DNA from: Anaerolineae bacterium
GTDB lineage: Bacteria; Chloroflexota; Anaerolineae; Aggregatilineales; Phototrophicaceae
Reading direction: 5' to 3'
Assembly: GCA_022841825.1 (NCBI GenBank)
Contig: JALHQT010000013.1
Span: 1-43,559, forward strand
DNA length: 43,559 nt
In this document: positions 25,931 to 43,559 of the stretch, piece after piece
Numbering within the stretch: the first letter of the stretch is position 1
How the letters are laid out: every line of letters begins with the position of its first letter
Translations under genes and position numbers: made by a program
The notes under the pieces: model-generated
Database searches by the model: none
What the model was told of the DNA's origin: nothing
What the model saw: only the letters and a program-made list of their open reading frames with translations

Positions 25931-25960
25931 TCCATTCCCCACCTACAAGTGTTAACAACC

Positions 25961-25989: not shown

Positions 25990-26040
25990 ATACGGGTGTT
26001 GAGAGGGTAATGTGTTAGGCGCATTCGGTCTTGGCGTTCG

Positions 26041-26153
26041 CTGTTGATGCCCCAGGCAGTGGCTACATAAACGAAAAAGCCAGCAGCATAACTGCCACTG
26101 GCTTTTTCAACGCGGACGTTTTGTTTACCGTCCTAGGCTGCGGGGAGGACAGG
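26041..26153 (+). repeat. Left boundary repeat (hairpin plus 17-bp core)
   Basis: Order of parts: GGCAGTGGCTA, hairpin with CCAGCA (26073-26108), CGCGGAC, then the core GCTGCGGGGAGGACAGG at 26137-26153. The right copy at 43341-43454 has the same parts in the same order and an identical core. The TraG homology starts immediately after the core. Confidence 0.65.
26073..26108. terminator. Bidirectional intrinsic terminator
   Basis: GAAAAAGCCAG pairs perfectly with CTGGCTTTTTC, giving a T tail in both directions. It isolates the ligase/protease genes from the island. Confidence 0.75.
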
Positions 26154-27097
26154 CGTCCAACGTGGTGGCTACGTTGGCGACCGCGCTGACGGGTTGGGCT
26201 TCGACCGATGTGCGCGCCAATACCAGCGCGTCCGACTTCGATGCCGAACTGATCGTCGCACAGCCGACGGTGGTTGTGCTGACCTGTCCCGGCAGGATGC
26301 GCGCCGTGTATGCCTCTTACTTGGGCGCGACGCTGCGCAAGCTGATGCTCGACCTCGACACCATCGGCGAGCGCAACAAAGGTCCACTGCCCGTCCCCGT
26401 CGGTGTCATCCTCGACGAATTCCCGACGCTCGGCAAGCTGGACAGCCTGGTCGCAGATGTCAATCTCGTCCGCAAGCGACGAATCAGCATCATGGTCGGT
26501 GCTCAAACCAAGGGGCAGTTCCACATGATCTACGGCTCAGAAGGCACGCAAGCGTTGTTCACAGGGTTGGCGACGCAGGTCATTTACGGCGGCTGCGACG
26601 CGGATACGGCGGAGTTTTACAGCAAGGCGAGTGGCACGGCGACCACCGATGCCAACCAGGACGATCCGAACAGCCACCTGCGTCAACGTCCGCTGCTGAC
26701 GGTTGATGAGGTCATCACACCGCAGGTCGGCAACTGCACCATCTTCGCCCGCTATGTCGAAGCGGGTTTTGCAACACAGGTTGTCCTGAACGCGCGCCTC
26801 ACACGCTTCTATGAGCGGATCGACTGGCAGCGCCGTTTGTCCGCTGCTCAAACCGCGCAGCCACTGCTGTTGGAACGCGGGTTGTCGATGAGTCTGAGCA
26901 GTCTTACTCACAAAATATCAGAAGCAGCGGTATCCCTCGAACCTAAGCCGACGCTCGACCGGGCGGCAGCCGCAGTGATAGCGCGTATCGCCGAAGATGC
27001 TGCCCAACAGTCGGGAGGCAAAGTTCAGTTCGCCAGCCTTGAGGCCATGCGTAGCAAAAGCGCGGCAGCACCCATCATGCCGGAGGTAAAGCAATGA
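26138..27097 (+). pseudogene. TraG/VirD4-type coupling protein, C-terminal fragment
   Basis: An open frame of about 315 residues matches the C-terminal half of TraG/TraD/VirD4 ATPases: VATLATALTGW, Walker B region VPVGVILDEFPTLGKLDSL, the RRISIMVGAQTKGQF sensor strand and TAEFYSKASGTATT. Walker A and the membrane-bound N terminus are missing, and the homology begins right at the end of the 17-bp repeat core. A GTG at 26162 could restart translation but the product could not work as an ATPase. Full-length relatives pump DNA through type IV secretion channels. It overlaps the HU-like gene by ATGA, so this was a conjugative operon. Confidence 0.8.
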
Positions 27098-27418
27098 CAC
27101 TGACGAAGAACAAGATGGTGAGTGAGGTTGGACGGCGCACCCGGCTGAAGAACCGCGATGTGCAGGCGATGCTGGAAGCCCTTGATCGAGGTATGGACTG
27201 AGGAACTGGTCAATGGTGGGCGAATTGAGTTGGAGGGATTATTCGTGATTGAGACCCAAATGGTTGACCGCGGAGAGCGCAGTGGACAGCTGCGGTATGG
27301 CGAAGCTCCGCGTTACATTCGGCGTATTATTGTGCGCGTCAGTCGCGGCTTGAGGCGTCGGCTGACACTGTCGCCCGACGAATCCAATATACGCTCTTTT
27401 GGGGATCACGATAAATGA
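27094..27418 (+). pseudogene. Frameshifted HU/IHF-family DNA-binding protein
   Basis: The frame from ATG 27094 gives MTLTKNKMVSEVGRRTRL to VQAMLEAL, then leaves the family and stops at 27201. The +1 frame continues it precisely as LIEVWTEELVNGGRIELEG and LFVIETQMVDRGERSGQ to 27418. Joined at about 27181 they make a ~108-residue HU-like protein (usual length ~90). One base gained or lost is enough to explain it. It could be a sequencing error; the neighbouring decapitated traG favours decay. Confidence 0.78.
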
Positions 27419-27955
27419 CAATTTCAGGTATGTAGGCAAGGAATCTCAGGATGTTCTTGTAGGCTACCTGCGGCGTTTCGGCTTCAGTTTGGAGAAGCTC
27501 TCATAAAGATGCTGTGCCAGTCCGCTGACGTTCACCCCTTCTTCGCTCTCCGTTTGTAAGAATCTGTGCGCTGCTTATAACACACTCTTTGCAAAGTCCC
27601 TGTTCATTCAACAAGAAAAGCAAATTACAGGCAACACACCACCAATTCTTGCGATCGTTCTGATCCTTTTGATTGAGCGATTTCATGTCGCGTCACCTTC
27701 ATATCCATCAGGTTCATCTTGATAAGTTTTAGGTGTATGGCTTGCTGTCCGACCTAGACTCAGCGCTCCAGCCATCTGCACCGGGAGAATCCTTAGTGTG
27801 CTGTTCCGCGAGAACCACTACCACTTGGTTGCTTGCGATTTCTCGCCCAGTTCTGGCGAACAAATGTCAGGCGATAGCGTCGCGCAATTCCATAAGCACT
27901 ATGCTACCATCATAGTCAACTAATTCGATTTATGAGGAAGGTCGAGGGCAGTGCA
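27419..27955. other. 537-base spacer, mostly without genes
   Basis: Relatively AT-rich DNA between the HU remnant and the first LuxR-type gene. Only one small minus-strand frame (27501-27686) has a ribosome site. Nothing else convincing is seen. The GAGGG at 27944-27948 is the ribosome site of the LuxR gene. Confidence 0.6.
27501..27686 (-). CDS. Possible small zinc-ribbon protein
   Basis: This 61-residue frame has two CxxC pairs (C17/C20 and C32/C35: WWCVACNLLFLLNEQGLCKEC) 11 residues apart, and an Arg-rich C-terminal tail. AAGGTGA lies 6 bases before ATG 27686. The arrangement could form a zinc ribbon. No family was recognised, and a chance frame is possible in this spacer. Confidence 0.35.
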   Translation of the reverse strand: MKSLNQKDQNDRKNWWCVACNLLFLLNEQGLCKECVISSAQILTNGERRRGERQRTGTASL

Positions 27956-30637
27956 ATGTTGTTGCTCAATACAAAACTCAACATTCCACCTATCCGCCCA
28001 TCACATGTGCATCGCACAGAGTTAATTCAAAAGCTGGATAAACTCCGAGAATATAAACTTGCTTTGATTGTTGCGTCAGCAGGATATGGAAAAACATCAC
28101 TCGTAAGCGAGTGGGTCGCGCAGAGTCCATTGAAGGCGGCTTGGTTTTCGATCGATGCAGGGGATAATGATCCAGTACGGTTTTGGGATTATTTTATCGC
28201 GGTAATCCGGACCGCATTTCCTGAAATCGGAGAGCCAGCGCTTACACTCCTACACGAACCGCAACCGCTGCCGATTGAAATGATCTTATCCACACTCATC
28301 AATGAGCTTTCGGCACTTTCTGATCCACTTGCTGTAGTGCTAGATGATTATCACGTGATCGATTCGTCGGCAATCCATGACGGGCTAATCTTTCTAGTCG
28401 AGCATATGCCTTCCCAGATACGTCTGATCATGACCACCCGAACGGATCCCCCCTTACCACTTGCGCGAATGCGGGTTCGCAGCCAACTACTTGAAATACG
28501 CAGCGCTGATTTGCGCTTCTCGCCGCCGCAGATCGCAACTTTCTTCACAGATGTCATGGGGTTGGCACTCACTAATGAGGAGGTTACAGCACTGGATACG
28601 CGCGTCGAAGGCTGGATTGCAGGGCTGCAATTGGCAGGATTGGCATTGCAGGGGAAGCGTGACCCGGCTGAGTTTATCGCTTCGTTTGCGGGGGATCATC
28701 GCTACGTGTTGGATTATCTGGGGGATGAAATCCTTGATCGACAGCCGGAAGCGATACAGCAGTTTCTGCTGCAAACCAGCATCCTTGAACGTCTTAATAC
28801 GGATCTCTGTGATACGGTTGTGGGTGTAGAGAACAGTTATTCTGTGCTTGAACATCTGGAGCGCAATCACTTTTTCGTAGTCGCGCTCGATGATAGACGC
28901 CACTGGTATCGCTATCATCGCCTGTTTGCTGACTTTTTACAGCACCGACTGAAACTGAAGTACCCAGATCGCACGAAAGAGCTGCATCAACGGGCATCGC
29001 AATGGTTTGAACAGAACGGACTGCAAGCGGAAGCCATCAGCCATGCGCTGGAAGCCCAGGACAATGAAAGAGCGGCGGAATTAGTACAAGGCATTGCTGA
29101 ACTGCTCATCTGGCGGCGCGCCGAACACAATACGCTGCTCGGCTGGTTGACTGCTTTACCTGACAGTGTTTTTCAGGTATATCCGCGTCTCTATCTCTAT
29201 CACGCGTGGGTGTTACATCTGACAAACCAGATGAGCGCAGCCGAACAGCGCATCCGGGATGCCGAAATGACACCGAATCAGGCTGACGGGAGTCCTGATC
29301 CGCTGATGGCGGGAATGCTTGCTGCCGTTCACAGCACGCTGACCGGGTTACATCAGAAGTTTCCCGAAACACTCGAATTGTCCAGAAAAGCGTTGGAATT
29401 ACTACCCGAAGAAGCGGTAAGCTGGCGCTGTATGGCGTCTATCAATCTGGGCGTGACCTGTGCCTATATCGGCGAAGTTCAGGAGGCGGTAGAAGTCTTG
29501 TCCTATGCGATGGAGTTGAGTCAGGAAATCGGCAGCTCCTTCGCCATTTTATCCGCATTTTGGCACCTTTCTTCACTGCAAACAGCACAACTGTCTTTAC
29601 GCGCTGCTGAAAATACCTGTCAGCAACTGGAACACGCCGCGCACATGCCGGGTTTACAGCGTTTCCCGACCAGCGGTTATATTGCGCTGCTCTTAGGGGA
29701 GATTAGTATGGAACGCAATGATCTTGACGCGGCAGAGCGCAATTTACTGGAAAGCGCCGAGCAGATTAACCCAGAAAGCTTTCCCCTGGCACTGCTGCGA
29801 GCCTACATTGCTTTGTCACGCCTCAAAACCCTTCAGGGAGATACTGAAGGCGCTGAATATTATTGGCAGCTTGCCGAGCAGCTGGAACGAATGAGCAACC
29901 TACAAGGGCGCGCGACTTTGCTTTCGATCTCACGAGCACGCCGCTGGCTAGAACAGGGCAATCTTGAGGCTGTCGAACGCTGGGCGGCGGAGAATCAGTT
30001 GGGACCCGACGACGAGTTTAGTTATCACCGCGAAGCTCATTACCTTCTGTTGGCGCGGTTCTACATCGCGAAAGGGGACAGGGTGGATCAAGCGCTCTAT
30101 CTATTAGAGCGGATGGTCAAACGCGCCGAAGTCGGCCAACGTCATGGCAGCCTGCTCCGTGCGCTCCTATTGCAGGCTGTCGCATTCCACGCAGACAATG
30201 ACGGCCAGAAAGCGGCAGAATCGCTGGCGCGCGCAGTGTCGCTGGCTGAACCGGAACAGCCGCTGCGTGTTTTTGCTGATGAAGGACAGCCCATTGCCCT
30301 GCTGCTGGAAAAACTGCTTGACATGCAGCGCAAAGGACAGCTTGCGCTGCCGATCTCATCCGAATATGCAGCCCGGTTGCTCACCACCATGGGAAAGAAC
30401 GCCCCATCGCCGACACCTAAACACCGTACCGTAGGGCATTTAGCCGATATGCTCAGTCCTCGCGAATTGGAAGTGCTGCGCTTGCTGGCAGATGGTCTGG
30501 AAAGTAATGAAATCGCGGAGCGGCTGTTTATCGCTGTTGACACGGCGCGCACGCATATCAAGAACATTTACAGCAAGCTGGGTGTTCACAGCCGCTGGGA
30601 AGCCATTAAACACGCTGAAGAATACCATTTGCTTTAA
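27956..30637 (+). CDS. LuxR-family LAL/MalT-like ATP-binding regulator (1)
   Basis: This 893-residue STAND regulator has Walker A at 40-48 (ASAGYGKTS, K46), Walker B (VVLDDYHVID), the RTDPPLPLARMRVRSQL sensor arm and EGWIAGLQLAG, then a TPR-like superhelix (about 350-790) and a C-terminal LuxR HTH (LSPRELEVLRLLADGLESNE). By family, an inducer bound to the TPR part and ATP promote oligomerisation and activation. ATG 27956 follows GAGGG by 7 bases; an earlier ATG at 27932 is possible. It is a paralogue of the gene at 38141. Likely targets are the hydrolase genes downstream, which carry palindromes. Confidence 0.9.
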   Translation: MLLLNTKLNIPPIRPSHVHRTELIQKLDKLREYKLALIVASAGYGKTSLVSEWVAQSPLKAAWFSIDAGDNDPVRFWDYFIAVIRTAFPEIGEPALTLLHEPQPLPIEMILSTLINELSALSDPLAVVLDDYHVIDSSAIHDGLIFLVEHMPSQIRLIMTTRTDPPLPLARMRVRSQLLEIRSADLRFSPPQIATFFTDVMGLALTNEEVTALDTRVEGWIAGLQLAGLALQGKRDPAEFIASFAGDHRYVLDYLGDEILDRQPEAIQQFLLQTSILERLNTDLCDTVVGVENSYSVLEHLERNHFFVVALDDRRHWYRYHRLFADFLQHRLKLKYPDRTKELHQRASQWFEQNGLQAEAISHALEAQDNERAAELVQGIAELLIWRRAEHNTLLGWLTALPDSVFQVYPRLYLYHAWVLHLTNQMSAAEQRIRDAEMTPNQADGSPDPLMAGMLAAVHSTLTGLHQKFPETLELSRKALELLPEEAVSWRCMASINLGVTCAYIGEVQEAVEVLSYAMELSQEIGSSFAILSAFWHLSSLQTAQLSLRAAENTCQQLEHAAHMPGLQRFPTSGYIALLLGEISMERNDLDAAERNLLESAEQINPESFPLALLRAYIALSRLKTLQGDTEGAEYYWQLAEQLERMSNLQGRATLLSISRARRWLEQGNLEAVERWAAENQLGPDDEFSYHREAHYLLLARFYIAKGDRVDQALYLLERMVKRAEVGQRHGSLLRALLLQAVAFHADNDGQKAAESLARAVSLAEPEQPLRVFADEGQPIALLLEKLLDMQRKGQLALPISSEYAARLLTTMGKNAPSPTPKHRTVGHLADMLSPRELEVLRLLADGLESNEIAERLFIAVDTARTHIKNIYSKLGVHSRWEAIKHAEEYHLL

Positions 30638-30647
30638 ATACCTTATA

Positions 30648-30667
30648 TGGGGTATGACACTACCCCA
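30648..30667 (+). promoter_or_regulatory. Palindromic operator candidate 1
   Basis: TGGGGTA-TGACAC-TACCCCA, 7-bp arms, just after the LuxR-type gene and 67 bases before the lipase-like gene. The following TACCCCACGACAA is also repeated at the second site. See 32552. Confidence 0.55.
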
Positions 30668-30733
30668 CGACAACAGATACCCTGAAGTGAGATGGTTCAA
30701 CCCGTTTTGTTCTCATTATCAGGAGGTTCTGTT

Positions 30734-31789
30734 ATGTCGTTCGTTTCAAGCTCTTCCTCAAAAGTGAACTCTGCTCAGGACAGTGAAGTCCAGACCAGTG
30801 GCGATCTTACCGCTGTCGCAGAAGTCCCTCAATCGTCGCTCAACAGACGCCGCCGTTACCGCTGGCTAATCCGAGTTGTCCTTTTGGTAGTCGGCTTGAT
30901 CCTGGCAGGAACGATTTACGAGTCGGTGTCAGAAGCGTCTGACATCCAGGCGTATCCCCCCATCGGTCAAATGGTAGATGTGGGCGGCTATCGCCTGCAT
31001 ATCAACTGCGTGGGTACCGGCAGCCCCACCGTAATCATTGAGGCTGGATTAGGCGATTGGTCTCTCCCGTGGAATGCGGTTCAGGAAGAGGTAGCAAAGA
31101 CCACGCGAGTTTGCACCTATGATCGAGCCGGCATAGGATACAGCGAGGCTAGTCCCCTGCCGCGTACTGCCGAGCAATTCGCTTTTGAACTCCACACCTT
31201 GCTTGAGCGAGCCAATGTCGAGGGTTCTTATGTGCTGGTCGGACACTCGTTAGGCGGTTTAGCCGTGCGTATTTTTGTCCACGATTATCCGACGGAAATC
31301 GCCGGGGTTGTGCTTATCGATTCAATGAGTCCCAGACAGAGGGCACAGCCTGAGATGGAAATAGAGCCTCAGACTTCCTACCAGCCCAGCGCTTTCTCGC
31401 TCCCCTTCTTCTTGGGGCGCATCGGATTGGTGCGTTTGTTAGCCGAGCCATTAGGATTAATTCAACATCTGCCAGCCCAAACCCAGCCTGCTTATGCCGC
31501 TTTCGCAGTGACTCCGCAAACTGCCCAGACATTTGTGGACGAATTCCTCAGCATACAAGAGAGTCTGGCTCAAGCAGAAGCAGTCACGACCTTCGGCGAT
31601 TTGCCGCTGATCGTTCTGACCGGTGTCATAGATGAGCAGGCAGGCTGGCAGGATTGGCAGGTTGAACTCCTCCAATTGTCTTCAAATAGTCGGCAGATAA
31701 TCGTAGAGAACAGCGGACACAATATCCACCTTGACCAGCCAGAGGCCGCAGTTGCAGCAATCGTGACTATGGTCTCGCAGCTTCGCTAA
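30734..31789 (+). CDS. Membrane-anchored alpha/beta-hydrolase
   Basis: This 351-residue protein has a cytoplasmic Ser-rich N terminus (1-38), Arg-rich stop (RRRRYRW), one membrane helix (about 44-61) and an external alpha/beta-hydrolase domain: oxyanion strand IIEAGLGDWS, nucleophile S172 in LVGHSLGGLAVR, acid in the IVLTGVIDEQAG segment and His in SGHNIHLDQP. It would be an ester or amide hydrolase facing outside. AGGAGG precedes ATG 30734. The operator candidate is upstream and a terminator (31815) downstream, so it is a single-gene unit. Confidence 0.85.
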   Translation: MSFVSSSSSKVNSAQDSEVQTSGDLTAVAEVPQSSLNRRRRYRWLIRVVLLVVGLILAGTIYESVSEASDIQAYPPIGQMVDVGGYRLHINCVGTGSPTVIIEAGLGDWSLPWNAVQEEVAKTTRVCTYDRAGIGYSEASPLPRTAEQFAFELHTLLERANVEGSYVLVGHSLGGLAVRIFVHDYPTEIAGVVLIDSMSPRQRAQPEMEIEPQTSYQPSAFSLPFFLGRIGLVRLLAEPLGLIQHLPAQTQPAYAAFAVTPQTAQTFVDEFLSIQESLAQAEAVTTFGDLPLIVLTGVIDEQAGWQDWQVELLQLSSNSRQIIVENSGHNIHLDQPEAAVAAIVTMVSQLR

Positions 31790-31814
31790 GCGGCTGTAAA
31801 GCGTCGAATCAGGA

Positions 31815-31851
31815 GGCAAAGTACCGATTACTTTGCCTTAACTTCCTTTTT
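31815..31851 (+). terminator. Intrinsic terminator after the alpha/beta-hydrolase
   Basis: GGCAAAGTA pairs perfectly with TACTTTGCC around a 5-base loop, followed by TTAACTTCCTTTTTAA. Confidence 0.7.
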
Positions 31852-31895
31852 AACTCCCTGACAACCCAATACGATGACTTGCGTGAGGTATACAA

Positions 31896-32555
31896 ATGGC
31901 ACTGGCAACATGGTGGGCTTCTGATCCCTTGATGGATTTGACTCCTGTATCAGACTTTCAGGTTCGGCTGGCAGCAAATGACACACAACTGGCAGCAATC
32001 AATCACATTACTGTCGCGGACGTAGAACAACGACGGCGTGCTGGACATCGTCCGTATATGGGCTACATGGACGGAACGCCAGTGACGTATGGTTGGGTAG
32101 CGACGCGCGAAGCCTCTATTGGAGAGCTCAACCTTGTTTTTCCTATCGCCGCAGAGAGTCGTTATCTGTGGGATTTCGCAACTTCACCGGACTGGCAAGG
32201 AAGAGGGCTATATCCGCGTCTATTGCAGGCAATTGTGCAGGCGGAACGAGCTGAACGCTTCTGGATTATCCATGCCCCGGAGAATCTGCCATCAGGTGCA
32301 GGAATCCAAAAGGCAGGTTTCCAGGCAGTCGGGCAGCTTTCGTTCCAGCGTGATAACAGTCTGGGTTTGATTCCGTTCGACCTGGCAGAACGCGCTCGTA
32401 TTGGCGCAGCGCTGCTGGGTGTCCCATTGATTGTGGATGGACTGAGCCCGTGCTGGCGCTGTGTCGAGCAAGTCGTCTGCACCTGTCAGCGTGACCCCGA
32501 AAGCTGTTCCTGTGCGGTTGAAATTCGCTCTACCCTACGACAATACCCCACATAG
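31896..32555 (+). CDS. GNAT-family acetyltransferase with Cys-rich tail
   Basis: This 219-residue protein has GNAT motif A (WDFATSPDWQGRGLYPRLLQ, with QGRGLY as acetyl-CoA loop) and an AGIQKAGFQAVGQL motif B. The last 36 residues contain six cysteines (C186, C189, C195, C197, C204, C206), spaced like CxxC-x5-CxC-x6-CxC, a possible metal site not usual in GNAT proteins. Its stop codon TAG lies inside the second palindrome at 32552. The substrate is unknown. No strong ribosome site (GTGAGG 8 bases upstream of ATG 31896). Confidence 0.8.
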   Translation: MALATWWASDPLMDLTPVSDFQVRLAANDTQLAAINHITVADVEQRRRAGHRPYMGYMDGTPVTYGWVATREASIGELNLVFPIAAESRYLWDFATSPDWQGRGLYPRLLQAIVQAERAERFWIIHAPENLPSGAGIQKAGFQAVGQLSFQRDNSLGLIPFDLAERARIGAALLGVPLIVDGLSPCWRCVEQVVCTCQRDPESCSCAVEIRSTLRQYPT

Positions 32556-32573
32556 GGTATGACACTACCCTAT
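32552..32573 (+). promoter_or_regulatory. Palindromic operator candidate 2
   Basis: ATAGGGTA-TGACAC-TACCCTAT, 8-bp arms and the same 6-base centre as site 1. The arms differ from site 1 by paired changes, so symmetry is kept. TACCCTACGACAA at 32531 repeats the sequence next to site 1. It precedes the serine-hydrolase gene by about 80 bases. Confidence 0.6.
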
Positions 32574-32654
32574 CTCCCCCGCTACTCTGAGGATAGTCAC
32601 AAGTCAGCAGACTGCGACGACCCCATTGATCCCAGCGTGATTTATGAGGCAACA

Positions 32655-34199
32655 ATGTCCTACACGAAAAGTTACTTCGCGTTTCTATGCATCCTGATCC
32701 TCCTCGGCATACTGCCCGTGTTTTCGCCTGTCATGCTTGCGTCTGCACAGAGCTTTCCTCTGCCACAGGTCGATCAGGATCGAATCGATGCCTATATTCA
32801 GTCCAGAATGCAGATTGCCAACATTCCCGGTCTGGCACTGGGTGTGGTATACGGCGACGAGGTTGTCTATCTCAAGGGCTATGGCATCGCCGCGCCGGAT
32901 GGGCGAACTGTGACTCCTCAGACCCCTTTCATTCTTGGCTCAACCTCCAAGTCCTTCACCGCGCTGGCAGTGATGCAACTGGTTGAGGCGGGCAAGATAG
33001 AGCTGGATGCACCTGTCACCACGTATCTACCCTGGTTCCGCACGAATGATGCAGCAGCATCCGCCCAGATCACCGTGCGCAACTTGTTAAACCAGAACAG
33101 TGGGCTACCCACCGACGCAGGTCGACTGGGCTTCACAGATAACGACCAGAGTGATATGGCGCTTGAAATTGGCATTCGAGATTTGTCTGGCGTACCGCTG
33201 AGTCAACCAGCAGGTCAACACTACGAATACGCCAACGAAAATTACAGCCTACTGGGTTTGATCGTCCAGGCAGTATCAGGGAGTTCATACGAAGAATATG
33301 TCCGTTCCGCGATCTTTGCTCCACTCCAGATGAGCCACAGCGCGGCTGCACTTTCCGATCCCGCAGCAATCGACATCGCCACAGGCTATCGCTATTGGTT
33401 CTTTTGGCCGGTCGCGTTCGATGCGCCTTACCCTCGGCGCATGACTCCAGCGGGTTTTCTGATTTCATCAGCAGAAGACATGACCCATTATTTAATCGCC
33501 CAGTTGAACGAGGGCACTTATGGCGATAACCTGCTCTTGTCCCCACAGGGAATCGATACAATGCACACTCCCAATCCTTTAGGCACGTATGGCATGGGAT
33601 GGGTGATACAGGGCGAACCCGGATCAACCAGAATCTGGCACAACGGGGATGTTAGCAATTTCCACTCCAATCTGCTGCTGCTCCCTGACCAGCACATTGG
33701 GATCGGCATACTAGTCAATGTCAACGGCTTCTTTAACAGTGCCGGAGTCAATATTCCAATAGAAGGTGTCGCCGAAATCCTTCTTGGAAACAACCTGAGC
33801 GCAAGCATCAATCCACCAGTAACCGTCATCCCGCAGGTGGTGCTGCTGGTTGCGCTGCTCATTCCTGCCCTTTGGATCGTAGGGTCTTACCTTTCCATCA
33901 GGCGCTGGCAACATCGCGGTGAGCTTCCTCCACGCAGCATCCGTCGTTTATGGCGGTTCTACCTGCCTCTATCCATCGATATTCTTCCGGTGGGTATTGC
34001 CTGGATCTTCGTGCCCTCACAGTTTCATGCGCCCGTAGAAACAACTGCCCTTTTCGCTCCTGATGCGTTTATCGTGATTGCGACGCTAACAGCCCTGAGC
34101 ATTGGCTGGGCGATCGCGCGCGCCTTCTTGACTCTTCACCCTCTCCGTCTTGTGCATCACGCAGGTAGTTACCGAGTAAAACGCAGCCTCATTGGATGA
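32655..34199 (+). CDS. Serine hydrolase (beta-lactamase/AmpC fold) with C-terminal membrane domain
   Basis: This 514-residue protein has a signal segment (SYFAFLCILILLGILPVFSP), then a class-C-beta-lactamase-like domain with S96-T-S-K99 (nucleophile and base), Y192-A-N194 and the HNGD motif in RIWHNGDVSNFHSN. Three hydrophobic helices follow at about 400-510 (VVLLVALLIPALWIV; IDILPVGIAWIFV; FIVIATLTALSIGWAI). The domain faces outside; relatives are D-aminopeptidases, esterases and penicillin-binding-like enzymes. GAGG sits 5 bases before ATG 32655. The open frame starts at 32559, inside the palindrome, and is not used. Confidence 0.87.
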   Translation: MSYTKSYFAFLCILILLGILPVFSPVMLASAQSFPLPQVDQDRIDAYIQSRMQIANIPGLALGVVYGDEVVYLKGYGIAAPDGRTVTPQTPFILGSTSKSFTALAVMQLVEAGKIELDAPVTTYLPWFRTNDAAASAQITVRNLLNQNSGLPTDAGRLGFTDNDQSDMALEIGIRDLSGVPLSQPAGQHYEYANENYSLLGLIVQAVSGSSYEEYVRSAIFAPLQMSHSAAALSDPAAIDIATGYRYWFFWPVAFDAPYPRRMTPAGFLISSAEDMTHYLIAQLNEGTYGDNLLLSPQGIDTMHTPNPLGTYGMGWVIQGEPGSTRIWHNGDVSNFHSNLLLLPDQHIGIGILVNVNGFFNSAGVNIPIEGVAEILLGNNLSASINPPVTVIPQVVLLVALLIPALWIVGSYLSIRRWQHRGELPPRSIRRLWRFYLPLSIDILPVGIAWIFVPSQFHAPVETTALFAPDAFIVIATLTALSIGWAIARAFLTLHPLRLVHHAGSYRVKRSLIG

Positions 34200-34262
34200 C
34201 ACGTGAATACGTTGGGATAGTTCATTACAGAAAATGCACCATGTAGAAAGTGGACAATAAGC

Positions 34263-34487
34263 ATGTATGTGGAAATCAGAATCAAAGGGACTTTGAAGCC
34301 CGACTGGTCAGACTGGTTAGAAGGTTTAATCGTCTCTCATCAGGCAAATGGGGAAACCGTCTTAAATGGACAGATTTCCGATCAGTCCGCGCTGATCGGG
34401 CTGTTGAACCGTATTCATGGTCTAAATCTGGAGCTGCTTTCGTTTTCACAATCCGACACAGCAGACTCACCAAACTTCAAACCGTAA
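34263..34487 (+). CDS. Small conserved protein of unknown function (paralogue A)
   Basis: This 74-residue protein shares a core with the gene at 40915: (I/V)R(I/V)KG-L-P-W-W, then GET-L-G, DQSAL-GLL and a closing L-L-S. The predicted order is strand, helix, two strands, helix, strand, a ferredoxin-like fold as in small ligand-binding or antitoxin-like proteins. It sits between the serine hydrolase and an MDR oxidoreductase. No domain name is known to me. No clear ribosome site. Confidence 0.65.
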   Translation: MYVEIRIKGTLKPDWSDWLEGLIVSHQANGETVLNGQISDQSALIGLLNRIHGLNLELLSFSQSDTADSPNFKP

Positions 34488-34539
34488 ACAGTCATCTTCA
34501 ATCAAACGCCCACTAGCATTCACTATAAGGAGTGAAGAA

Positions 34540-35532: not shown

Positions 35533-35611
35533 AACTAGCGAAAAACTGCACCTGCCGCGATGAAGCCTAGTAGAATTGCGGCAGGCGACCGGGTGCTTAG
35601 GAGAAATACGT

Positions 35612-36532: not shown

Positions 36533-36580
36533 CAAATTGGGGCTCATGATTATCTTAAAAACGATTAGCCGGGGGATACG

Positions 36581-37018
36581 ATGATAGGGGACACATTGCT
36601 GACTGGCCGCTGGAACAATCGGTTTACGGCGGGGCTTGGACTGATCTTTTTCTCCTTCATTGCTGTCACTTTGTTCACGGCGGTACTGTCGGCAGGAGAC
36701 GCCTTTAGGGGGCTTGTGCTGATCGGCTGCCTGTTCTGAATATTCACCGAGGGACACCTGACCATGCGGTTCGCATGGGAGAAGAGACAATCGGGGAACA
36801 GGAATACAGTCAAACCGGGATGCGCCATCCAACTTTTCAGGCTGGCTTATAATGCGGCCTGGCTGCTGCCAATCGTGCTGACCTTTAATGAAACGCTGGA
36901 CTACACTACGGGGTTTGCGGCCTTTACGACAATCTGTATTGTCAGGCTCATCGCTAATCTGTATGCGAATAACGTCCTCAACGCACAGCAGTTCGACACC
37001 TTTCTCTTCCGAGCGTGA
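36581..37018 (+). pseudogene. Membrane protein split by an in-frame TGA
   Basis: From ATG 36581 a 145-codon frame runs to 37018, broken only by TGA at 36737-36739 (codon 53). The first half has two hydrophobic helices (LIFFSFIAVTLFTAVL, GLVLIGCLF) and the second begins IFTEGHLTMRFAWEKRQSGN, with further helices at AYNAAWLLPIVLTF and AAFTTICIVRLIANLY. TGG to TGA would restore a four-helix protein. No family was recognised. A second start at ATG 36764 could yield an 84-residue piece. GGGGG at 36571 precedes the first ATG. Confidence 0.6.
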
Positions 37019-37053
37019 GAATGTCGGATGAAAGCCGTACAGGAGAAATACGC

Positions 37054-38034
37054 ATGAAAGCCATAGTATTGACGAAATACGGATCACCGGATGGGCTTCA
37101 GCTCACAGAAGTCGAAAAACCAACTCCAAAGGACAATGAAGTCCTGATACGAGTGCGTGCGACAACCGTAACAGCCGGGGATGCTGAGATTCGAACGCTC
37201 AATTTCCCAATCTGGCTGATGCTCCCTATCCGCATCTATGTAGGTTTCATTAAGCCAAGGAACTTCATTCTCGGACAGGAACTCGCCGGGGACGTTGAGG
37301 CCGTCGGCAAAGCTGTGACACGATTTAAGGAAGGCGACCCCGTTATCGGAACAACCGGTTTTCGGTTTGGTGCTCATGCTGAATACGCCTGTCTGCCGGA
37401 AGCGGGAGTATTGGCCATCAAACCGTCTAATATGCCCTACGAGGAAGCCACTGCCGTTTCTGTTGCTGGAATTGAAGCCCTGCATTTTATGAGAAAAGCG
37501 AATATCCAGAGTGGAGAAAAGGTATTGATCGTTGGTGCAGGTGGGAGTATCGGTACGATTGCAGTACAGCTTGCTCGATACTATGGGGCGGAAGTGACCG
37601 GTGTGGACAGCACCGGGAAGCTGGACATGCTGCGCTCAATTGGCGTGGATCACACCATTGACTACACCCGGGCGGATTTTACTCAAAGCGGTCAGACCTA
37701 TGACGTTATCTTTGATGTGATGGGCAAGAGTTCGTTTTCAGGAAGTATCCAATCGCTCAAGCCAAACGGGCGCTATCTTTTAGGAGGTAACTCCGGACCG
37801 TCACAGATACTTCGGGGGTGGTGGGTTTCGATGACAGGGAGCAAAAAAGTCATCGTTGGGGCAGCGAGTCAAAAGACTGAAGATCTGTTTTTCCTCAAAG
37901 AACTCATTGAGGCGGGAAAGCTGAAGACGGTGATTGATAGACGCTACCCCTTGGAACAGACTGCCGAGGCGCACCGCTACGTCGAAACAGGGCAAAAGAA
38001 AGGAAATGTCGTCATCACTGTAGCCCACGATTGA
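37054..38034 (+). CDS. Zinc-less MDR oxidoreductase, copy 3
   Basis: This 326-residue protein starts [20 protein letters not shown], nearly as copy 2, with GQELAGDVEAVGKAV, FKEGDPVIGT and IVGAGGSIGTIAVQLARYYG. The middle region (LGGNSGPSQILRGWWVSMTG) aligns with copy 1 where copy 2 is deleted. The final helix [20 protein letters not shown] is nearly identical to copy 2. The leader AGGAGAAATACGC is shared with copy 2. NAD(P)H-dependent reduction of an enone or quinone is expected by family; the substrate is unknown. Confidence 0.9.
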   Translation: MKAIVLTKYGSPDGLQLTEVEKPTPKDNEVLIRVRATTVTAGDAEIRTLNFPIWLMLPIRIYVGFIKPRNFILGQELAGDVEAVGKAVTRFKEGDPVIGTTGFRFGAHAEYACLPEAGVLAIKPSNMPYEEATAVSVAGIEALHFMRKANIQSGEKVLIVGAGGSIGTIAVQLARYYGAEVTGVDSTGKLDMLRSIGVDHTIDYTRADFTQSGQTYDVIFDVMGKSSFSGSIQSLKPNGRYLLGGNSGPSQILRGWWVSMTGSKKVIVGAASQKTEDLFFLKELIEAGKLKTVIDRRYPLEQTAEAHRYVETGQKKGNVVITVAHD

Positions 38035-38140
38035 ATCCTCGAAACGTGTGTAAAACAACAGCAGCGTCACTTCTGCGCCGCTCTGGTTTACCCACGTGCT
38101 CGGACGCTTCGCGAGTATGGACATACGATATACTTGCTCC

Positions 38141-40774
38141 ATGATTACGTCTATTCTATCTACTAAACTTCATATTCCTTCGTCTCAGAATAAGGTTGTC
38201 ATCCGCCGCCGTCTGATTGATCGGCTGAACGAGGGACTGCATGGTAAGCTGTCTCTCATCTCTGCTCCCGCCGGTTTTGGGAAGACCACACTGGTCAGTG
38301 AATGGATTACCGATTGCCGCCGTGCGACTGCCTGGCTTTCGCTGGACGAGGGGGATAACAACCTCACACGCTTTCTGATTTACTTCGTCGCTGCTGTGCA
38401 GACCATAGCACCGAATACGGGCGAAGAGGTTTTGGCGGTACTCCAATCGCCTCAGCCACCGCCAACCGAAGTGATGTTGACAGCGCTGCTCAATGAAATC
38501 GTCACCATCCCGGACGATTTTCTGCTTGTGCTTGACGATTACCATCTGACAGATGCCAGACCGATTGACCATGCGCTTACCTTTTTCCTCGAGCATCTGC
38601 CTCCCCGGATGCACCTGGTCATCACGACCCGCGAGGATCCGAATCTGCCGTTGGCGAGGTTGCGGGCACGGAGGCAGTTGACCGAACTGCGCGCCGCCGA
38701 CCTGCGCTTCACTCCGGATGAAGCGGCCCATTTCCTCAATCAGATGATGGGACTTCGTCTTTCGGCGGAAGAAATTGACGCGCTGGAAACCCGCACCGAA
38801 GGCTGGATTGCAGGTTTGCAACTCGCCGCGATTTCCATGCAGGGACATCAGGATGTGAGCAGTTTCATTCAATCCTTCAGTGGCAGTCACCATTTCGTGT
38901 TGGACTATCTGGTTGAAGAAGTCCTGCAACGGCAGTCGGAACATCTCCAGACGTTCTTGCTACACACGTCGATCTTGGATCGCCTCTGTGGTTCGCTGTG
39001 TGACGCGATTCTGCTTGACAAGTCTGCTTCCGGACAAGCCACGCTGGAATCTATCGAACACGCCAATCTGTTCCTCATCCCACTGGACAATGAGCGCCGC
39101 TGGTATCGCTATCACCATCTCTTTGCGGATTTGCTCCGGCAGCGGCTGCATCAGCGCATGAGTACGGAGGGAGTCGCTGAACTACACAGCCGCGCTAGCC
39201 TGTGGTATGAAGAGCATGGGCTGGAGCTGGATGCCTTTCATCATGCCGCCGCCGCCCACGATATTGAGCGTGTCGAGCGCCTGATTGAGGGCGATGGGAT
39301 GCCCCTACAATTTCGGAGCGCATGGGCACCTGTCCTCAACTGGCTGGAGTCGCTGCCGAGAGCGGTATTGGATGCCAGACCCTCGCTGTGGGTAACTTAC
39401 GCCTCAACATTGTTGTTTGGCGGGCAACAGCCGTCCGCCGTCGAACTGAAACTACAAGCGGCTGAACAGGCGCTGAAAACAGCCGAAACAAATGACAATA
39501 CCGACGACCTTATCGGACGTATTTCCGCTATCCGGGCGCTGTTGGGCGTTATTTCCCACGATGCCGAAACCATCATGATTCAGTCGCATCGCGCACTGGA
39601 GTATCTGCACCCCGGCAATATTCCTGTCCGCACCGCAGCAACCATGGCGCTCGGCCATGCCTATCAGCTACAGGGAAACCGTGCCGCCGCCCGGCAAGCC
39701 TTTCTGGATGTGATCGCCTTCAGTAACGCATCCCGAAATTCGGTCTATACGACATCGGCTGCCATGTATCTCGCTCATCTCGAGGAATCTGACAACCAAC
39801 TGGCATCCGCGACAGCGACTTACAAGCGTGCTGCACAATTGGCGGGTGATCCGCCGGAGGCGATGGTTGCGATAGCCTATCTTGGTTTAGCCCGCATCCA
39901 CTATCAATGGAACGATCTGGAGGCCGCCGAAGCGTATGGGCAGCAATGCGCCCACTTTTTGCGACAGATGTACAGCATTGACTCCACTGCTGCCTATGAT
40001 GTGTTTTTGGCCCGCCTCAAATTGACACAGGGCGATGCTGCGGGTGCTGTTGCTACATTGGCGGAAGCCGAGGCGTTCGTTCACCAACATCACTTTATGC
40101 ACCGGATGCCTGAAATCGCTGCCACACAGGTCATGGCCTTGCTGCAACAGGGCAATCTGGCGGCAGCTGCGCATATTGCCCGAACTCATGACCTCCCCAT
40201 CAGTCAGGCGCGGATCTATCTGGCTGAGGGAAACCCGTCCGCAGCACTGGCACTGTTGGTACCCTTACGCCAGCAGATGGAGGCAAAAGGCTGGGCAGAC
40301 GAGCAGCTCCGGGTGATGATACTGACAGCAATCGCGCTGCACGCGCTCGGTGAAAAAGATGACGCTGCGCAGGTGTTGGTTGAGGCGCTGGCGATGGCGA
40401 AGACGGGTGGATTCATACGTCTCTTTATCGATGAGGGCTTGCCGATGGCAGAGCTCTTGTCCGAAGCATCGGCCCGCGGGTTGATGCCGGACTATATACG
40501 CAACCTATTGACGGCATTTAAAGCGGAGCGTGAGAAGCGTAAAGAAACCGCTCAGCAGCCCTCGCCAGCCCAACCCCTTATCGAGCCATTGAGCCAGCGT
40601 GAGTTGGAAATACTCCGTCTGGTTGCTGACGGACTTTCGAATCGTGAGATCAGCGAGCGGCTTTTCATCGCTCTTGTCACGGTCAAGGTTCACAACGGGA
40701 AGATTTTCGAAAAACTACAGGTTCAGCGGCGCACCGAAGCGGTGGCCCGTGCCCGCGAGTTGGGTCTGTTGTAG
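38141..40774 (+). CDS. LuxR-family LAL/MalT-like ATP-binding regulator (2)
   Basis: This 877-residue STAND regulator has Walker A at 42-50 (APAGFGKTT, K49), Walker B (LLVLDDYHLTD), the TREDPNLPLARLRARRQL arm, EGWIAGLQLAA, a TPR-type sensor region (about 340-790) and a C-terminal LuxR HTH (LSQRELEILRLVADGLSNRE). ATG 38141 (MITSILSTKLHIP) agrees with the family N terminus. There is no ribosome site; TATACT lies 6 bases upstream, so the mRNA may be leaderless. It is a paralogue of the gene at 27956 and is followed by a promoter region with TACCCC half-sites. Confidence 0.9.
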   Translation: MITSILSTKLHIPSSQNKVVIRRRLIDRLNEGLHGKLSLISAPAGFGKTTLVSEWITDCRRATAWLSLDEGDNNLTRFLIYFVAAVQTIAPNTGEEVLAVLQSPQPPPTEVMLTALLNEIVTIPDDFLLVLDDYHLTDARPIDHALTFFLEHLPPRMHLVITTREDPNLPLARLRARRQLTELRAADLRFTPDEAAHFLNQMMGLRLSAEEIDALETRTEGWIAGLQLAAISMQGHQDVSSFIQSFSGSHHFVLDYLVEEVLQRQSEHLQTFLLHTSILDRLCGSLCDAILLDKSASGQATLESIEHANLFLIPLDNERRWYRYHHLFADLLRQRLHQRMSTEGVAELHSRASLWYEEHGLELDAFHHAAAAHDIERVERLIEGDGMPLQFRSAWAPVLNWLESLPRAVLDARPSLWVTYASTLLFGGQQPSAVELKLQAAEQALKTAETNDNTDDLIGRISAIRALLGVISHDAETIMIQSHRALEYLHPGNIPVRTAATMALGHAYQLQGNRAAARQAFLDVIAFSNASRNSVYTTSAAMYLAHLEESDNQLASATATYKRAAQLAGDPPEAMVAIAYLGLARIHYQWNDLEAAEAYGQQCAHFLRQMYSIDSTAAYDVFLARLKLTQGDAAGAVATLAEAEAFVHQHHFMHRMPEIAATQVMALLQQGNLAAAAHIARTHDLPISQARIYLAEGNPSAALALLVPLRQQMEAKGWADEQLRVMILTAIALHALGEKDDAAQVLVEALAMAKTGGFIRLFIDEGLPMAELLSEASARGLMPDYIRNLLTAFKAEREKRKETAQQPSPAQPLIEPLSQRELEILRLVADGLSNREISERLFIALVTVKVHNGKIFEKLQVQRRTEAVARARELGLL

Positions 40775-40798
40775 CACCCCGTCACAATCTCACAGAAC

Positions 40799-40838
40799 TA
40801 TACCCCCAAACTATACTTTAGTATCTATACCCCTATAC
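40799..40838 (+). promoter_or_regulatory. Promoter region with TACCCC half-sites and a palindrome
   Basis: CTATACCCCC, ATACT-TT-AGTAT (40813-40824) and CTATACCCC-TATACC lie in a pyrimidine- and A/T-rich stretch ahead of the small gene at 40915. The half-site TACCCC is the same as in the operators at 30648 and 32552. Confidence 0.45.
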
Positions 40839-40914
40839 CTAATCCCCACTATGCTGCCTATAGATTGAGTAAGCGGCGCAGATAGCTTTGAACGGCCACC
40901 TCAGTTAGAAGCTC

Positions 40915-41187
40915 ATGTCGAACAAAATCAACCCGGAAACCGATCCTGATCAACCAGCAGTCTATCAAATCAGGGTCAAAGGACATCTCGATCCTCAATG
41001 GGCAAGCTGGTTTGACGAGATGACCATCACGCTGGACGAGGACGGCGAAACGCTATTAAGCGGCATGGTGGCTGATCAGTCCGCGTTGCATGGTTTGCTG
41101 AGGAAAGTGCGTGATTTAGGAATGCCCTTAATCTCGGTCAAGCGTATTGACCCCCGCTCGCCAGATGTGTCGGATATCGAATCTTGA
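40915..41187 (+). CDS. Small conserved protein of unknown function (paralogue B)
   Basis: This 90-residue protein has a 15-residue acidic/polar lead, then YQIRVKGHLDPQWASWFDEM, a Gly-Glu-Thr turn (EDGETLLSGMVADQSALHG) and LISVKRIDP. It is homologous to the 74-residue protein at 34263 over about 62 positions. Both accompany a LuxR-type ATPase and a membrane or oxidoreductase gene, so a job in that regulatory circuit (ligand binding, or an adaptor) is possible, but unproven. The next gene starts 36 bases later. Confidence 0.68.
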   Translation: MSNKINPETDPDQPAVYQIRVKGHLDPQWASWFDEMTITLDEDGETLLSGMVADQSALHGLLRKVRDLGMPLISVKRIDPRSPDVSDIES

Positions 41188-41222
41188 GATTTATCATCAT
41201 CGTTCAAACAGGAGAGAAGTAC

Positions 41223-41951
41223 ATGAACACCAACAAGCAGACCGCGATTAAGGAGAGTAAAGGGAGCATAACACCCTCGACTCTCATCCGTTGGGCAGGC
41301 TTAGCTGCTGTGGCGGCAGGGATCATTTACACGGTCATTCAACCCATCCACCCACCTGACGTTCGCGCGTCAGTCACCACCAGCGCATGGGCTATCATCA
41401 CCCCCGTGAAGACGGTTATGGCGATGTTCTTCCTGCTCGGCATTACGGGGATCTACGCCAGGCAAGTGAGAGAGACCGGGTGGCTCGGTCTGGTCGGGTT
41501 TCTCCTGCTCATCGTCAGTTGGATGCTCAACCTGTCCTATATCTTTGCCGAAACCTTCATCATTCCGCTGTTGACGACGACCTCACCGACGTTGATCGAT
41601 GGCTTCTTCGGGATCGTCAATGGGCATCCTGTCGATGTTAACCTCGGCGCACTTCCCGGTGTATTTGGGATTGTGGGCATCACGTACATGCTCGGCGGAC
41701 TGCTATTTGGCATCGCGACGTTCCGCGCTGGCATCCTGCCACGCTGGGCTGCCGGTCTGCTCGCCGTCACCTCCGCACTGACCCCTTTGGCTGCACTGGT
41801 CCCGCACGAATATCAGCGGTTAGCAGGGATGCCAGTGGGGATCGCGCTGGCATGGCTGGGATATGCACTCTGGTCACAACGTCAAGCCAATATCGCGGCG
41901 ACCTCAACCGACGTGGGCAGCCCTCAACTTCGCCAAAACGTTGCCAAGTAA
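41223..41951 (+). CDS. Six-helix membrane protein of unknown function
   Basis: This 242-residue protein has about six hydrophobic helices: AGLAAVAAGIIYTVI, VMAMFFLLGITGIYA, GLVGFLLLIVSWMLNLSYIF, FGIVGITYMLGGLLFGIA, GLLAVTSALTPLAALV and GIALAWLGYALW. The shape resembles DUF4386-like or other small integral proteins that follow LAL regulators. AGGAGAG precedes ATG 41223. No catalytic motif was noticed. It is probably cotranscribed with the small gene upstream; a terminator-like hairpin follows. Confidence 0.7.
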   Translation: MNTNKQTAIKESKGSITPSTLIRWAGLAAVAAGIIYTVIQPIHPPDVRASVTTSAWAIITPVKTVMAMFFLLGITGIYARQVRETGWLGLVGFLLLIVSWMLNLSYIFAETFIIPLLTTTSPTLIDGFFGIVNGHPVDVNLGALPGVFGIVGITYMLGGLLFGIATFRAGILPRWAAGLLAVTSALTPLAALVPHEYQRLAGMPVGIALAWLGYALWSQRQANIAATSTDVGSPQLRQNVAK

Positions 41952-41975
41952 GGTCGCTGTCAACTGAACGGAATG

Positions 41976-42001
41976 AACAAGCGGCTAGACCGCCGCTTGT
42001 T
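41976..42001 (+). terminator. Hairpin after the membrane protein gene
   Basis: AACAAGCGGC pairs perfectly with GCCGCTTGTT around a 6-base loop. The T tail is short (TTTC), so termination may be weak. Confidence 0.5.
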
Positions 42002-42102
42002 TCAGGGTGTAGACGATCAGCAGCCTGTCTGAATGCGCTGTGAAACGAATCCACGACTGCCCAACACTGTCCAAGGATCTGAAAAGAAAGCGAATATCTA
42101 AA

Positions 42103-42834
42103 ATGAAAACCATGCCCCTTGATGGGCTAAAGCAACCCACATTTCAGAAAACCAAAGCACCTGCAAGAGGAGCAGAATGGCTGGTCACAGCGGGGCTAAT
42201 CCTCCTCGCTGTGATACCGGTTCTGGCAGGGATTGTCCGCGTCGGACAACTGACCGTTGGCGCGGAGACGACACCCGTTACACCCGAAAATGCGCGCTTC
42301 TTCGCCATGCCGTTACCGGTCATCCTGCACGTCTTCAGCGTGACTGTGTATGCGCTGGTCGGCGCGTTCCAGTTTGCGCCGGGCATTCGCCTGCGTTATC
42401 CACGCTGGCACAGGCGTGCAGGCTGGTTGCTCGTCCCGTCCGGACTTGCCGCTGCGTTTAGCGGGATGTGGATGGCGCATTTCTACCCCTCACCCGCCGG
42501 AGACGGCGTCGTTGTGTACGCAATGCGGCTCCTGTTCGGGTTCCTGATGACACTTGCGCTCATCCTGGCAGTGCTGGCGGTTCGTCAGCGAAATTTCACC
42601 CAGCATGGTGCGTGGATGGTTCGCGCTTATGCCATTGGTATGGGCGCGGGGACACAGGTACTCACAGGCATAGTGTGGGCGCTTCTGGTCGGCACGTCTG
42701 GCGAGTTGGCGAGGAATATCGTGCTGGGCAGCGGTTGGATTATCAACCTCGTTGTTGCCGAGTGGGTCATCCAGTGGCGTTTGACGCGCCCGCAGCGCAA
42801 AGCAGCACTTGCCGCATCCACCCGCCAATCATAA
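42103..42834 (+). CDS. DUF2306 membrane protein
   Basis: This 243-residue protein has about six helices. The DUF2306 pattern is visible: a helix with His (VILHVFSVTVYALVGAFQF), RLRYPRWHRRAGWLLVPSG with adjacent His, GMWMAHFYP, FTQHGAWMVRAYAIGMG, and a last helix. The conserved histidines suggest haem or metal ligation, but the family's role is unknown. ATG 42103 is used; GTG 42040 is in frame but lacks a better signal. The truncated MDR gene starts 26 bases after its stop. Confidence 0.78.
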   Translation: MKTMPLDGLKQPTFQKTKAPARGAEWLVTAGLILLAVIPVLAGIVRVGQLTVGAETTPVTPENARFFAMPLPVILHVFSVTVYALVGAFQFAPGIRLRYPRWHRRAGWLLVPSGLAAAFSGMWMAHFYPSPAGDGVVVYAMRLLFGFLMTLALILAVLAVRQRNFTQHGAWMVRAYAIGMGAGTQVLTGIVWALLVGTSGELARNIVLGSGWIINLVVAEWVIQWRLTRPQRKAALAASTRQS

Positions 42835-42859
42835 ACCCGAATAGGAAAGGAACAACCCC

Positions 42860-42898
42860 ATGAACGCCATTATCTACACACAATACGGATCACCCGAT
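42860..42898 (+). pseudogene. MDR oxidoreductase, first 13 codons only (copy 4)
   Basis: ATG 42860, behind AGGAAAGG, encodes MNAIIYTQYGSPD, which matches the N terminus of copy 1 (MKAIIYTQYGSPD). After codon 13 the sequence changes frame and homology to a serine recombinase. It marks a recombination junction at about 42898. Confidence 0.75.
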
Positions 42899-43293
42899 TT
42901 CACAACTGGGCATATGCTGGATGGTTGACGAGCCAAGTAGGTAATCTGCCGCCAAAGACCATTCGCGGAGATTGGGAGCCGATTGTCACGACAGAAGAGT
43001 TTGAACGCTGCCAATCGATCCTGGCACGACGAAACCAATTTCGCATAGCACGGCGTAAGCACGACTATCTTTTGAAGGGAATGGTCTATCTGGATCGAGG
43101 TCACACTCAGGGGCTGGTTAAGCTGACCGGATCAAGATCAAATTCGGGACGTGCAGGTGGTGGGACGCCCTACTATTGTGTTCCGGGAAGCAACCTGAAC
43201 TTTCTTTGTGATGAGATTGACGCCCAAATTCCTTATACGACTAACTCTGCACGGATTGCAGCAGAAACACCAGACACACATCACAAATCTTGA
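42899..43293 (+). pseudogene. Large serine recombinase, internal fragment
   Basis: A frame from about 42898 encodes the recombinase and zinc-ribbon region of large serine recombinases: WAYAGWLTSQVGNLPPKTIR, GDWEPIVTTEEFERCQSILA, RRKHDYLLKGMVYL and YYCVPGSNLNFLCDEID. The catalytic N-terminal domain with the nucleophilic serine is absent, and the CxxC knuckle of the ribbon is reduced to single Cys residues. After about 43240 the frame departs from the family. Full proteins of ~500 residues integrate mobile elements at att sites. It is not functional here. Confidence 0.72.
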
Positions 43294-43340
43294 TTTTGCA
43301 CTTCAGATCATCTCACAAGTTGGAGTTGTGTCAGGTAGAA

Positions 43341-43454
43341 GGATTAACGGCACGCAGCAGTGGGCTAGAAAGCACGAAGACCAGCAAATTGGCTTCTGCT
43401 GGTCTTCGCGGACCCTCACGTTCGGATTGGGTCTTTAGCTGCGGGGAGGACAGG
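43341..43454 (+). repeat. Right boundary repeat (hairpin plus 17-bp core)
   Basis: The copy contains GCAGTGGGCTA, hairpin GAAGACCAGCA/TGCTGGTCTTC (43376-43407), CGCGGAC and the core GCTGCGGGGAGGACAGG at 43438-43454. The parts and order equal those at 26041-26153. The tract after the core differs (AGTCAACCTC versus CGTCCAACGTGG). Confidence 0.65.
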
Positions 43455-43557: not shown

Positions 43558-43559
43558 TG

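Follow-up and report, generated by a model that had tools for sequence, protein, structure and literature searches.

The window analysed here is the whole of contig C13, 43,559 bp, from a draft genome of an Anaerolineae bacterium (Chloroflexota; 5.9 Mb in 21 contigs). It carries two exact + strand copies of a 17-bp core, core 1 and core 2 (Table 1), which enclose an island of 17 kb with a truncated traG gene at its left end and the remains of a large serine recombinase (LSR) at its right end. An earlier note had described direct repeats with this identical core, TraG homology starting at the left copy and a serine-recombinase remnant near the right copy, and had proposed insertion or accretion at a repeated attachment (att)-like site. 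The three observations hold, and accretion is supported, the site being the 3′ end of tRNA-Ser(GCT). The reading we favour, at a probability of roughly 85%, is that LSR-encoding elements accreted at this 3′ end and that the LSR frame runs through the element's own attachment site, attP, so that integration splits a C-terminal tail from the enzyme. The genetic part of this reading is well supported; a function of the split as a switch is an inference.

A scan of the window with up to three mismatches gave three core matches against 0.18 expected, a number reached in none of 100 shuffles; the third match lies inside the island (39623–39639, − strand, two mismatches). The earlier note had suggested a whole-genome search for the core and a comparison of empty sites in related strains. 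With up to one mismatch, the core is present in the 5.9-Mb genome only at the two window sites, and the reversed-pattern control gave none. The same pattern occurs in 7 of 15 genomes of the genus, again with no match for the reversed control. Seven such places lie outside the window. One is a partial copy in genome G010, and each of the other six forms the 3′ end of a complete tRNA-Ser(GCT) gene; the core is therefore the 3′ end of tRNA-Ser(GCT), on the − strand. No complete tRNA was found in the window. The intact tRNA-Ser(GCT) of the host lies on another contig (C1:104–196), adjoins tRNA-Ser(TGA) and has 14–15 bp in common with the core. The protein gene past tRNA-Ser(TGA) in C1 encodes NusB, which was matched in seven other loci (L014–L018, L079, L081).

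In genomes G009 and G010 the chromosomal flank sits at tRNA-Ser(GCT) and the island is absent. Neither outcome that the earlier note had named as refuting, many more genomic copies unrelated to element ends or these genes colinear without repeats in related strains, was encountered. Immediately after the tRNA, G009 carries orthologs of window genes that run from 11.5 kb down to 0.2 kb. Gene order in G010 is the same (within the 12 kb fetched), behind a 1.5-kb insert that ends in the partial tRNA copy. This insert (L014:3889–5463) holds one membrane-protein-like open reading frame between tRNA-Ser(GCT) and the partial copy, and no recombinase was recognised in it. The window sequence from 11.6 kb to the tRNA is therefore extra relative to these two genomes.

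The upstream flanks of the two cores, with the core itself left out, are alike beyond chance (1 of 500 shuffles reaches the score). In local alignments the left flank is more similar to that of G010 than to the right flank, and the right flank is more similar to those of G012 and G013 than to the left one (0 of 500 shuffles reach the score in each case). Both derive from the 3′ flank of a tRNA, have diverged and contain a terminator-like hairpin. The resemblance of the left flank to the tRNA flank of G010 suggests that the left copy is probably the older chromosome side.

Element B and the junction at core 2

Exact overlaps of 119 bp join the end of the window to the start of contig C14, and the end of C14 to the start of C1. 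The first overlap starts at the first base of a 15-bp repeat, GCGGGGAGGACAGGA, and the second ends at its last base. Since the overlaps give the order window, C14, C1 and tRNA, the right copy is a junction between the island, hereafter A, and a second element, B. The tRNA site of G009 and G010 has neither A nor B. Breaks of this kind are expected in a de Bruijn assembly if reads also join the end of C14 to its own start; reads from an empty site would put the contig breaks at other bases. The overlaps thus point to circularisation of B.

Element B (C14, 25,386 bp) encodes an FtsK/SpoIIIE translocase, a DnaG-type primase, adenine and cytosine methylases and a recombinase, LSR_B, in which a Resolvase N-terminal domain is followed by a Recombinase domain. 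The intact tRNA-Ser(GCT) of C1 stands at one end of B and the repeat of its 3′ end, core 2, at the other, as in a tRNA-targeted island. Read from the end of C14 into its start, the LSR_B frame continues as VNLAFPIIAAGTTIDDARRLAA up to a stop at 43524 (543 residues); read into C1, it ends within the tRNA (534 residues). In the circular form of B, the arms GGTGATCGGAAA and TTTCCGATCATC are separated by 28 bp. A search of 98 genomes gave six LSR_B relatives, spread over five genomes other than the host's. Three of them end at tRNA-Asp or tRNA-Ser with the stop 49–53 nt inside, and three have no tRNA call; one of the latter carries a tail, YPIVPYGISADYVLRIIA, similar by eye to VNLAFPIIAAGTTIDDARRLAA.

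A decayed tRNA-Ser behind core 2 was also considered and was rejected, the stretch being the P′ arm and tail of LSR_B. The anchored alignment score for such a tRNA was reached at 2–71 of 1000 random window places and in 5–135 of 1000 shuffles, depending on the tRNA used, and Rfam gave no tRNA behind core 2 at E up to 10.

Family A recombinases at tRNA genes and their C-terminal tails

The recombinase remnant of A, LSR_A, has no Pfam match and was assigned to a recombinase family, family A, by similarity only. Two members of this family, L040 and L063, show a Resolvase N-terminal domain followed by a Recombinase domain and no other recognisable domains. Ser-25, presumably the catalytic serine, is invariant in 13 aligned members; the window remnant is without the catalytic domain and the S25 region. 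Family A gave 52 matches in 12 of the 15 genus genomes. At all 24 distinct junctions with a tRNA, the recombinase gene points at the tRNA 3′ end; in 23 of these genes the stop lies on the first tRNA base or past it, and the remaining gene runs off its contig.

One scan of named genome contigs gave 65 family A loci, which are related by descent and, because several contigs are common to both, are not independent of the genus set. All are labelled Anaerolineae, Aggregatilineales or Chloroflexi except three (L103, L152 and L143), labelled Bacteroidetes (two) or Pleurocapsa (one); the label of L143 is probably wrong. Nine loci were set aside (five contig ends, four partial matches), 45 end at a tRNA in antisense, and 11 reach the C-terminus without a tRNA call, some of them attP-like and one a tRNA cut by the contig end. 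The tRNA-ending loci cover 13 anticodons; in 42 of the 45 the first tRNA base is reached before or at the stop, and two run off contigs. Second copies of the 33–35-bp tRNA ends were sought in ten sets of loci. The host's own tRNA-Ser query returned the two window cores (15 and 14 bp), and the other nine sets gave no convincing second copy, the best being 14 of 16 bp in G003:C155. This scarcity fits a family A crossover near the tRNA end, which leaves short repeats.

The distance from a GTTn motif to the nGAAC of the tRNA T-loop is 43 bp in all 45 tRNA loci, the pair nearest 43 having been chosen by the script where several were possible. In all but one of the 45, GTTn is found at −20, −21 or −22, and a single fixed place holds GTTn in 1.1% of random draws. 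Where an LSR is followed by parA rather than by a tRNA, the distance is 48 bp. After identical rows had been merged, 50 stretches upstream of ParA had a tail. Ten of these have GTTn at 48, and all ten keep the frame open through it; of those with no GTTn at 48, 26 have an open frame, 13 have an intervening stop and one is too short. Relative to the centre of the 48-bp site, the last position of the motif is 24 in attP and 19 in the tRNA. The corresponding motif of the Listeria integrase spans 16–24 in attP and 11–19 in attB (Rutherford et al., 2013, PMC3783163). The 5-bp difference between 48 and 43 is the attP/attB shift published there for a serine integrase. Because the positions 24 and 19 match the published ones, the T-loop occupies the place expected of an attB half-site motif, which suggests that the enzyme recognises the T-loop.

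The tail segment upstream of ParA genes ends in a motif such as FLQQIAFPQR. In a frame-free search, 19 of 24 rows (two duplicates) have the end of GAAC 47, 50, 56 or 59 nt before the P codon of the motif, spacings that all keep one frame. A frame-demanding tail finder was applied to the 69 of 72 loci with enough sequence (three dropped); it reported tails in 53 and none in 16, and two of the 53 (L218 and L221) were discarded as false after inspection. For 50 unique segments, the ratio of non-synonymous to synonymous differences (pN/pS) is 0.44 in the LSR frame versus 1.00 and 1.42 in the other two, calculated from 53 pairs at 70–98.5% identity that share ancestry, so the counts are not independent; the ratio is 0.56–0.63 once more distant pairs are included. 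Differences fall on the three codon positions as 139/122/236. Stops interrupt 0, 17 and 13 of 28 tail representatives in the LSR frame and the other two frames, respectively, and F and Q surround the invariant P, itself demanded by the finder, in 26 of the 28. Judged by its pattern of substitution, the tail is conserved as protein in family A, and this conservation suggests that it is important. Tails standing alone were found at attR. With E values of at most 1e-60, relatives of ParA are present in 36 of 98 family genomes.

Whole elements are found in relatives. In the single-contig genome G058, an element of 67.5 kb extends from an LSR at tRNA-Ala(CGC) to a ParA gene with tail, and its ends have a 17-bp run in common. 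On one contig of G023, ParA and LSR genes alternate three times in the same orientation, the first LSR being broken and the last lying at tRNA-Gln(TTG). This array is a tandem accretion, as proposed for the window.

Proposed mechanism and its alternatives

In the proposed mechanism, the 3′ end of tRNA-Ser(GCT) is an integration hotspot at which LSR elements inserted one after another, giving the order tRNA, B (25.4 kb), core 2, remnant A (17.3 kb), core 1 and older chromosome. The LSR frame meets no stop ahead of attP and reads across it; integration splits the tail from the enzyme, leaving the enzyme body at the tRNA (attL) with codons of the antisense tRNA as its last codons in place of the tail, while the conserved tail itself ends up at the opposite end of the element (attR). 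In family A, the T-loop occupies the position of one attB half-site motif; its use as a half-site would, if true, account in one step for the many different tRNA genes occupied by a single recombinase family. The enzyme body is whole up to the att site in the integrated form, and since the recognisable domains precede att, integration need not abolish activity. A gene cut by its own insertion may be a built-in switch, and we hypothesise that exchange of the tail alters the activity or direction of the enzyme. A bolder version would make the system a bacterial serine counterpart of the suicidal integrases: full-length enzyme would exist only in the circular form or at a tandem junction, the tail swap would act as a state sensor for direction or stability, and the T-loop as attB half-site would open nearly any tRNA gene to integration. 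This version is put forward tentatively, with the odds slightly against it.

Several observations weigh against the favoured reading. The traG gene is cut at an inner codon at core 1, whereas 18 of 19 other loci span this junction, reading [ST]DG[KR]VA[AS]N, and traG stands where the parA/tail end expected for family A should be; the traG-core joint leaves the left end of A unexplained. The 17-kb island described in the earlier note is bounded by repeats as stated, but it is a decayed 17.3-kb remnant rather than one intact element flanked by its own ends; its right copy is the junction with the second element, and the cut within the traG coding region means that no canonical att junction is present on the left. 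No tRNA remnant was seen by eye near 11.6 kb, and the stretch from 11.6 to 26.0 kb therefore need not be a mobile element. Within family A, the stop of L101 lies 4 nt before the tRNA, and three loci without a tRNA call (L154, L155 and L160) fit neither the attP-like form nor a cut tRNA; these more distant members, which end in sequence of the GGGCCCAC type and in two cases have a stop shortly behind it, may form a subfamily that uses another target. Since 26 of the 50 ParA-upstream stretches are open with no GTTn at 48, an open frame is not by itself a mark of attP. Tail conservation in the LSR_B clade was judged by eye from two tails. In an AlphaFold model of the attP-form enzyme, of moderate quality (mean predicted local distance difference test score (pLDDT) 73.3, predicted template modelling score 0.34, 15 sequences), all confident folds lie before residue 541 and the tail, residues 541–608, has pLDDT below 50.

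The model is also what would be expected if the locus were an ordinary tRNA hotspot and the tail a dispensable, unstructured extension exchanged without effect, as is the fact that only the Resolvase and Recombinase domains are recognisable. This explanation is possible though doubtful: it leaves unaccounted for the low pN/pS of the tail in the LSR frame, the lack of in-frame stops in the 28 representatives with their F and Q residues, and the frame preserved through attP in all ten attP-like forms. The tail segment might instead be a separate small gene or a DNA signal ahead of parA, since it stands alone upstream of parA in attR forms and the 26 open stretches just mentioned have a frame open further upstream with no GTTn. 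That the segment shares one frame with the recombinase in the ten attP-like forms, that its P′-motif distance keeps frame in the frame-free search, and that substitutions track codon position make this improbable.

Segmental duplication or homologous recombination, with no site-specific integration, could have made the two copies, and the left copy joined to an inner part of traG with no canonical element end, together with the broken recombinase of A, would suit it. At the right copy, however, the half-sites are spaced as in family A and the inverted arms and split frame of LSR_B are present, and the same type of junction is found in relatives at 13 anticodons; we regard this explanation as very improbable. 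An assembly or binning artefact, in which C13, C14 and C1 are not adjacent, is suggested by the draft state of the genome and by overlaps that lie in repeats. It is very improbable, given that both overlaps are exactly 119 bp and bounded by the edges of the 15-bp repeat, that the LSR frame and inverted arms are consistent across both joins, and that the C1 side has the nusB-tRNA-Ser neighbourhood known from relatives.

The favoured reading recalls the archaeal suicidal (SSV-type) integrases. According to a review (PMC8371274), these enzymes have attP within the integrase gene, which integration splits, and tRNA genes are among their targets; they are tyrosine recombinases in which the split separates the N-terminal part from the catalytic domain, and they are called exclusive to archaea. 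Here, likewise, attP lies inside the gene and the gene is split on integration (in all ten attP-like forms and in LSR_B). Unlike them, the enzyme is a bacterial serine recombinase with Resolvase and Recombinase domains, only a C-terminal tail is exchanged, and the domain layout suggests that activity need not be removed. If true, this would be a serine-type bacterial parallel to enzymes which that review confines to archaea (PMC8371274). The direction of serine integrases has been explained by the geometry of their att sites together with a separate directionality factor (PMC3783163). If true, the splitting of a gene in the reaction that it catalyses would add a second, self-contained means of telling the free from the integrated state.

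The LSRs described here share with the large serine integrases of phiC31, Bxb1 and Listeria A118 the Resolvase and Recombinase domains and a distal half-site motif that is displaced by 5 bp between attP and attB. In those three systems attP lies outside the coding frame; here, in contrast, the frame crosses attP and the tRNA T-loop replaces a half-site. As in tRNA-targeted islands of the Islander/TIGER type, the tRNA is preserved whole, a repeat of its 3′ end marks the other side and elements stand in a row, but the users of the site are serine recombinases and one family covers 13 anticodons. Actinomycete-type integrative conjugative elements (AICEs) resemble B in having an FtsK/SpoIIIE-type translocase, a primase and an integrase, and differ in host phylum; judging by its genes, B may be AICE-like. 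A literature search, with most subscription papers out of reach, turned up no serine recombinase recognised as having attP within its gene, as split by integration or as tRNA-targeted. LSR relatives gave three weak partial matches in plasmid records and none in phage records.

Remnant A and other features of the window

The features around the two cores are collected in Table 1. The LSR_A remnant consists of residues 259–372 (42892–43233) and a C-terminal piece (43235–43330). Among the cargo of remnant A, three consecutive dehydrogenase genes (34540–38034) have common repeats. A copy of the start of the first of these genes lies at 42845–42902, fused to the recombinase remnant at about 42,900.

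Table 1. Positions of features at and between the two core copies in the window.
Feature	Position	Strand	Basis or remark
Left flank of core 1, tRNA-Ser 3′ flank	26041–26136		Terminator-like hairpin at ~26073–26108; resembles natural flank of G010
Core 1, tRNA-Ser(GCT) 3′ end	26137–26153	−	Pattern searches, tRNA scan; rest of tRNA absent
traG/virD4-type coupling gene, 3′ fragment	26153–27097	+	Pfam T4SS-DNA_transf, TraG-D_C
Cargo of remnant A	27932–42834	+	Two MalT-like LuxR regulators, alpha/beta hydrolase, acetyltransferase, PF00144-family protein, zinc-type dehydrogenase genes, DUF2306 membrane protein
Broken LSR_A (family A)	42892–43330	+	tblastn/hidden Markov model matches
Terminator-like hairpin of right copy	43380–43409		Sequence
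P half-site of LSR_A	43420–43440	+	GTTCG starts 21 bp ahead of tRNA sequence, place as in relatives
Core 2, tRNA-Ser(GCT) 3′ end	43438–43454	−	Pattern searches
15-bp direct repeat bounding B, attR side (GCGGGGAGGACAGGA)	43441–43455		Identical at both C14 ends
119 bp common with C14 start	43441–43559		Contig overlap; window runs on into B
Orphan C-terminal tail of LSR_B (VNLAFPIIAAGTTIDDARRLAA and stop)	43456–43524	+	In frame across 15-bp repeat
P′ arm of attP_B (TTTCCGATCATC)	43468–43479		Inverted as GGTGATCGGAAA at end of C14

Several family A loci carry tandem recombinase genes (for example G013:C44:62626-65150 and G008:C16:246585-249130), in which a short gene matching about residues 1–305 (open frames of 313–321 amino acids) accompanies a long one. 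The att site coincides with a contig end, or lies close to one, in many draft contigs (such as L042, L089, L092 and G003:C230), as expected if integrated and free forms are both in the sample. Between the syntenic chromosome and core 1 (11600–26000) lie sugar-kinase, SIS-domain, ATP-grasp and subtilase genes; the subtilase left of core 1 has homologs at 42–51% identity in 11 other genus genomes (12 of 15 including its own). The contig begins within a 5S ribosomal RNA gene (1–101), and a flavin mononucleotide (FMN) riboswitch lies at 2709–2890.

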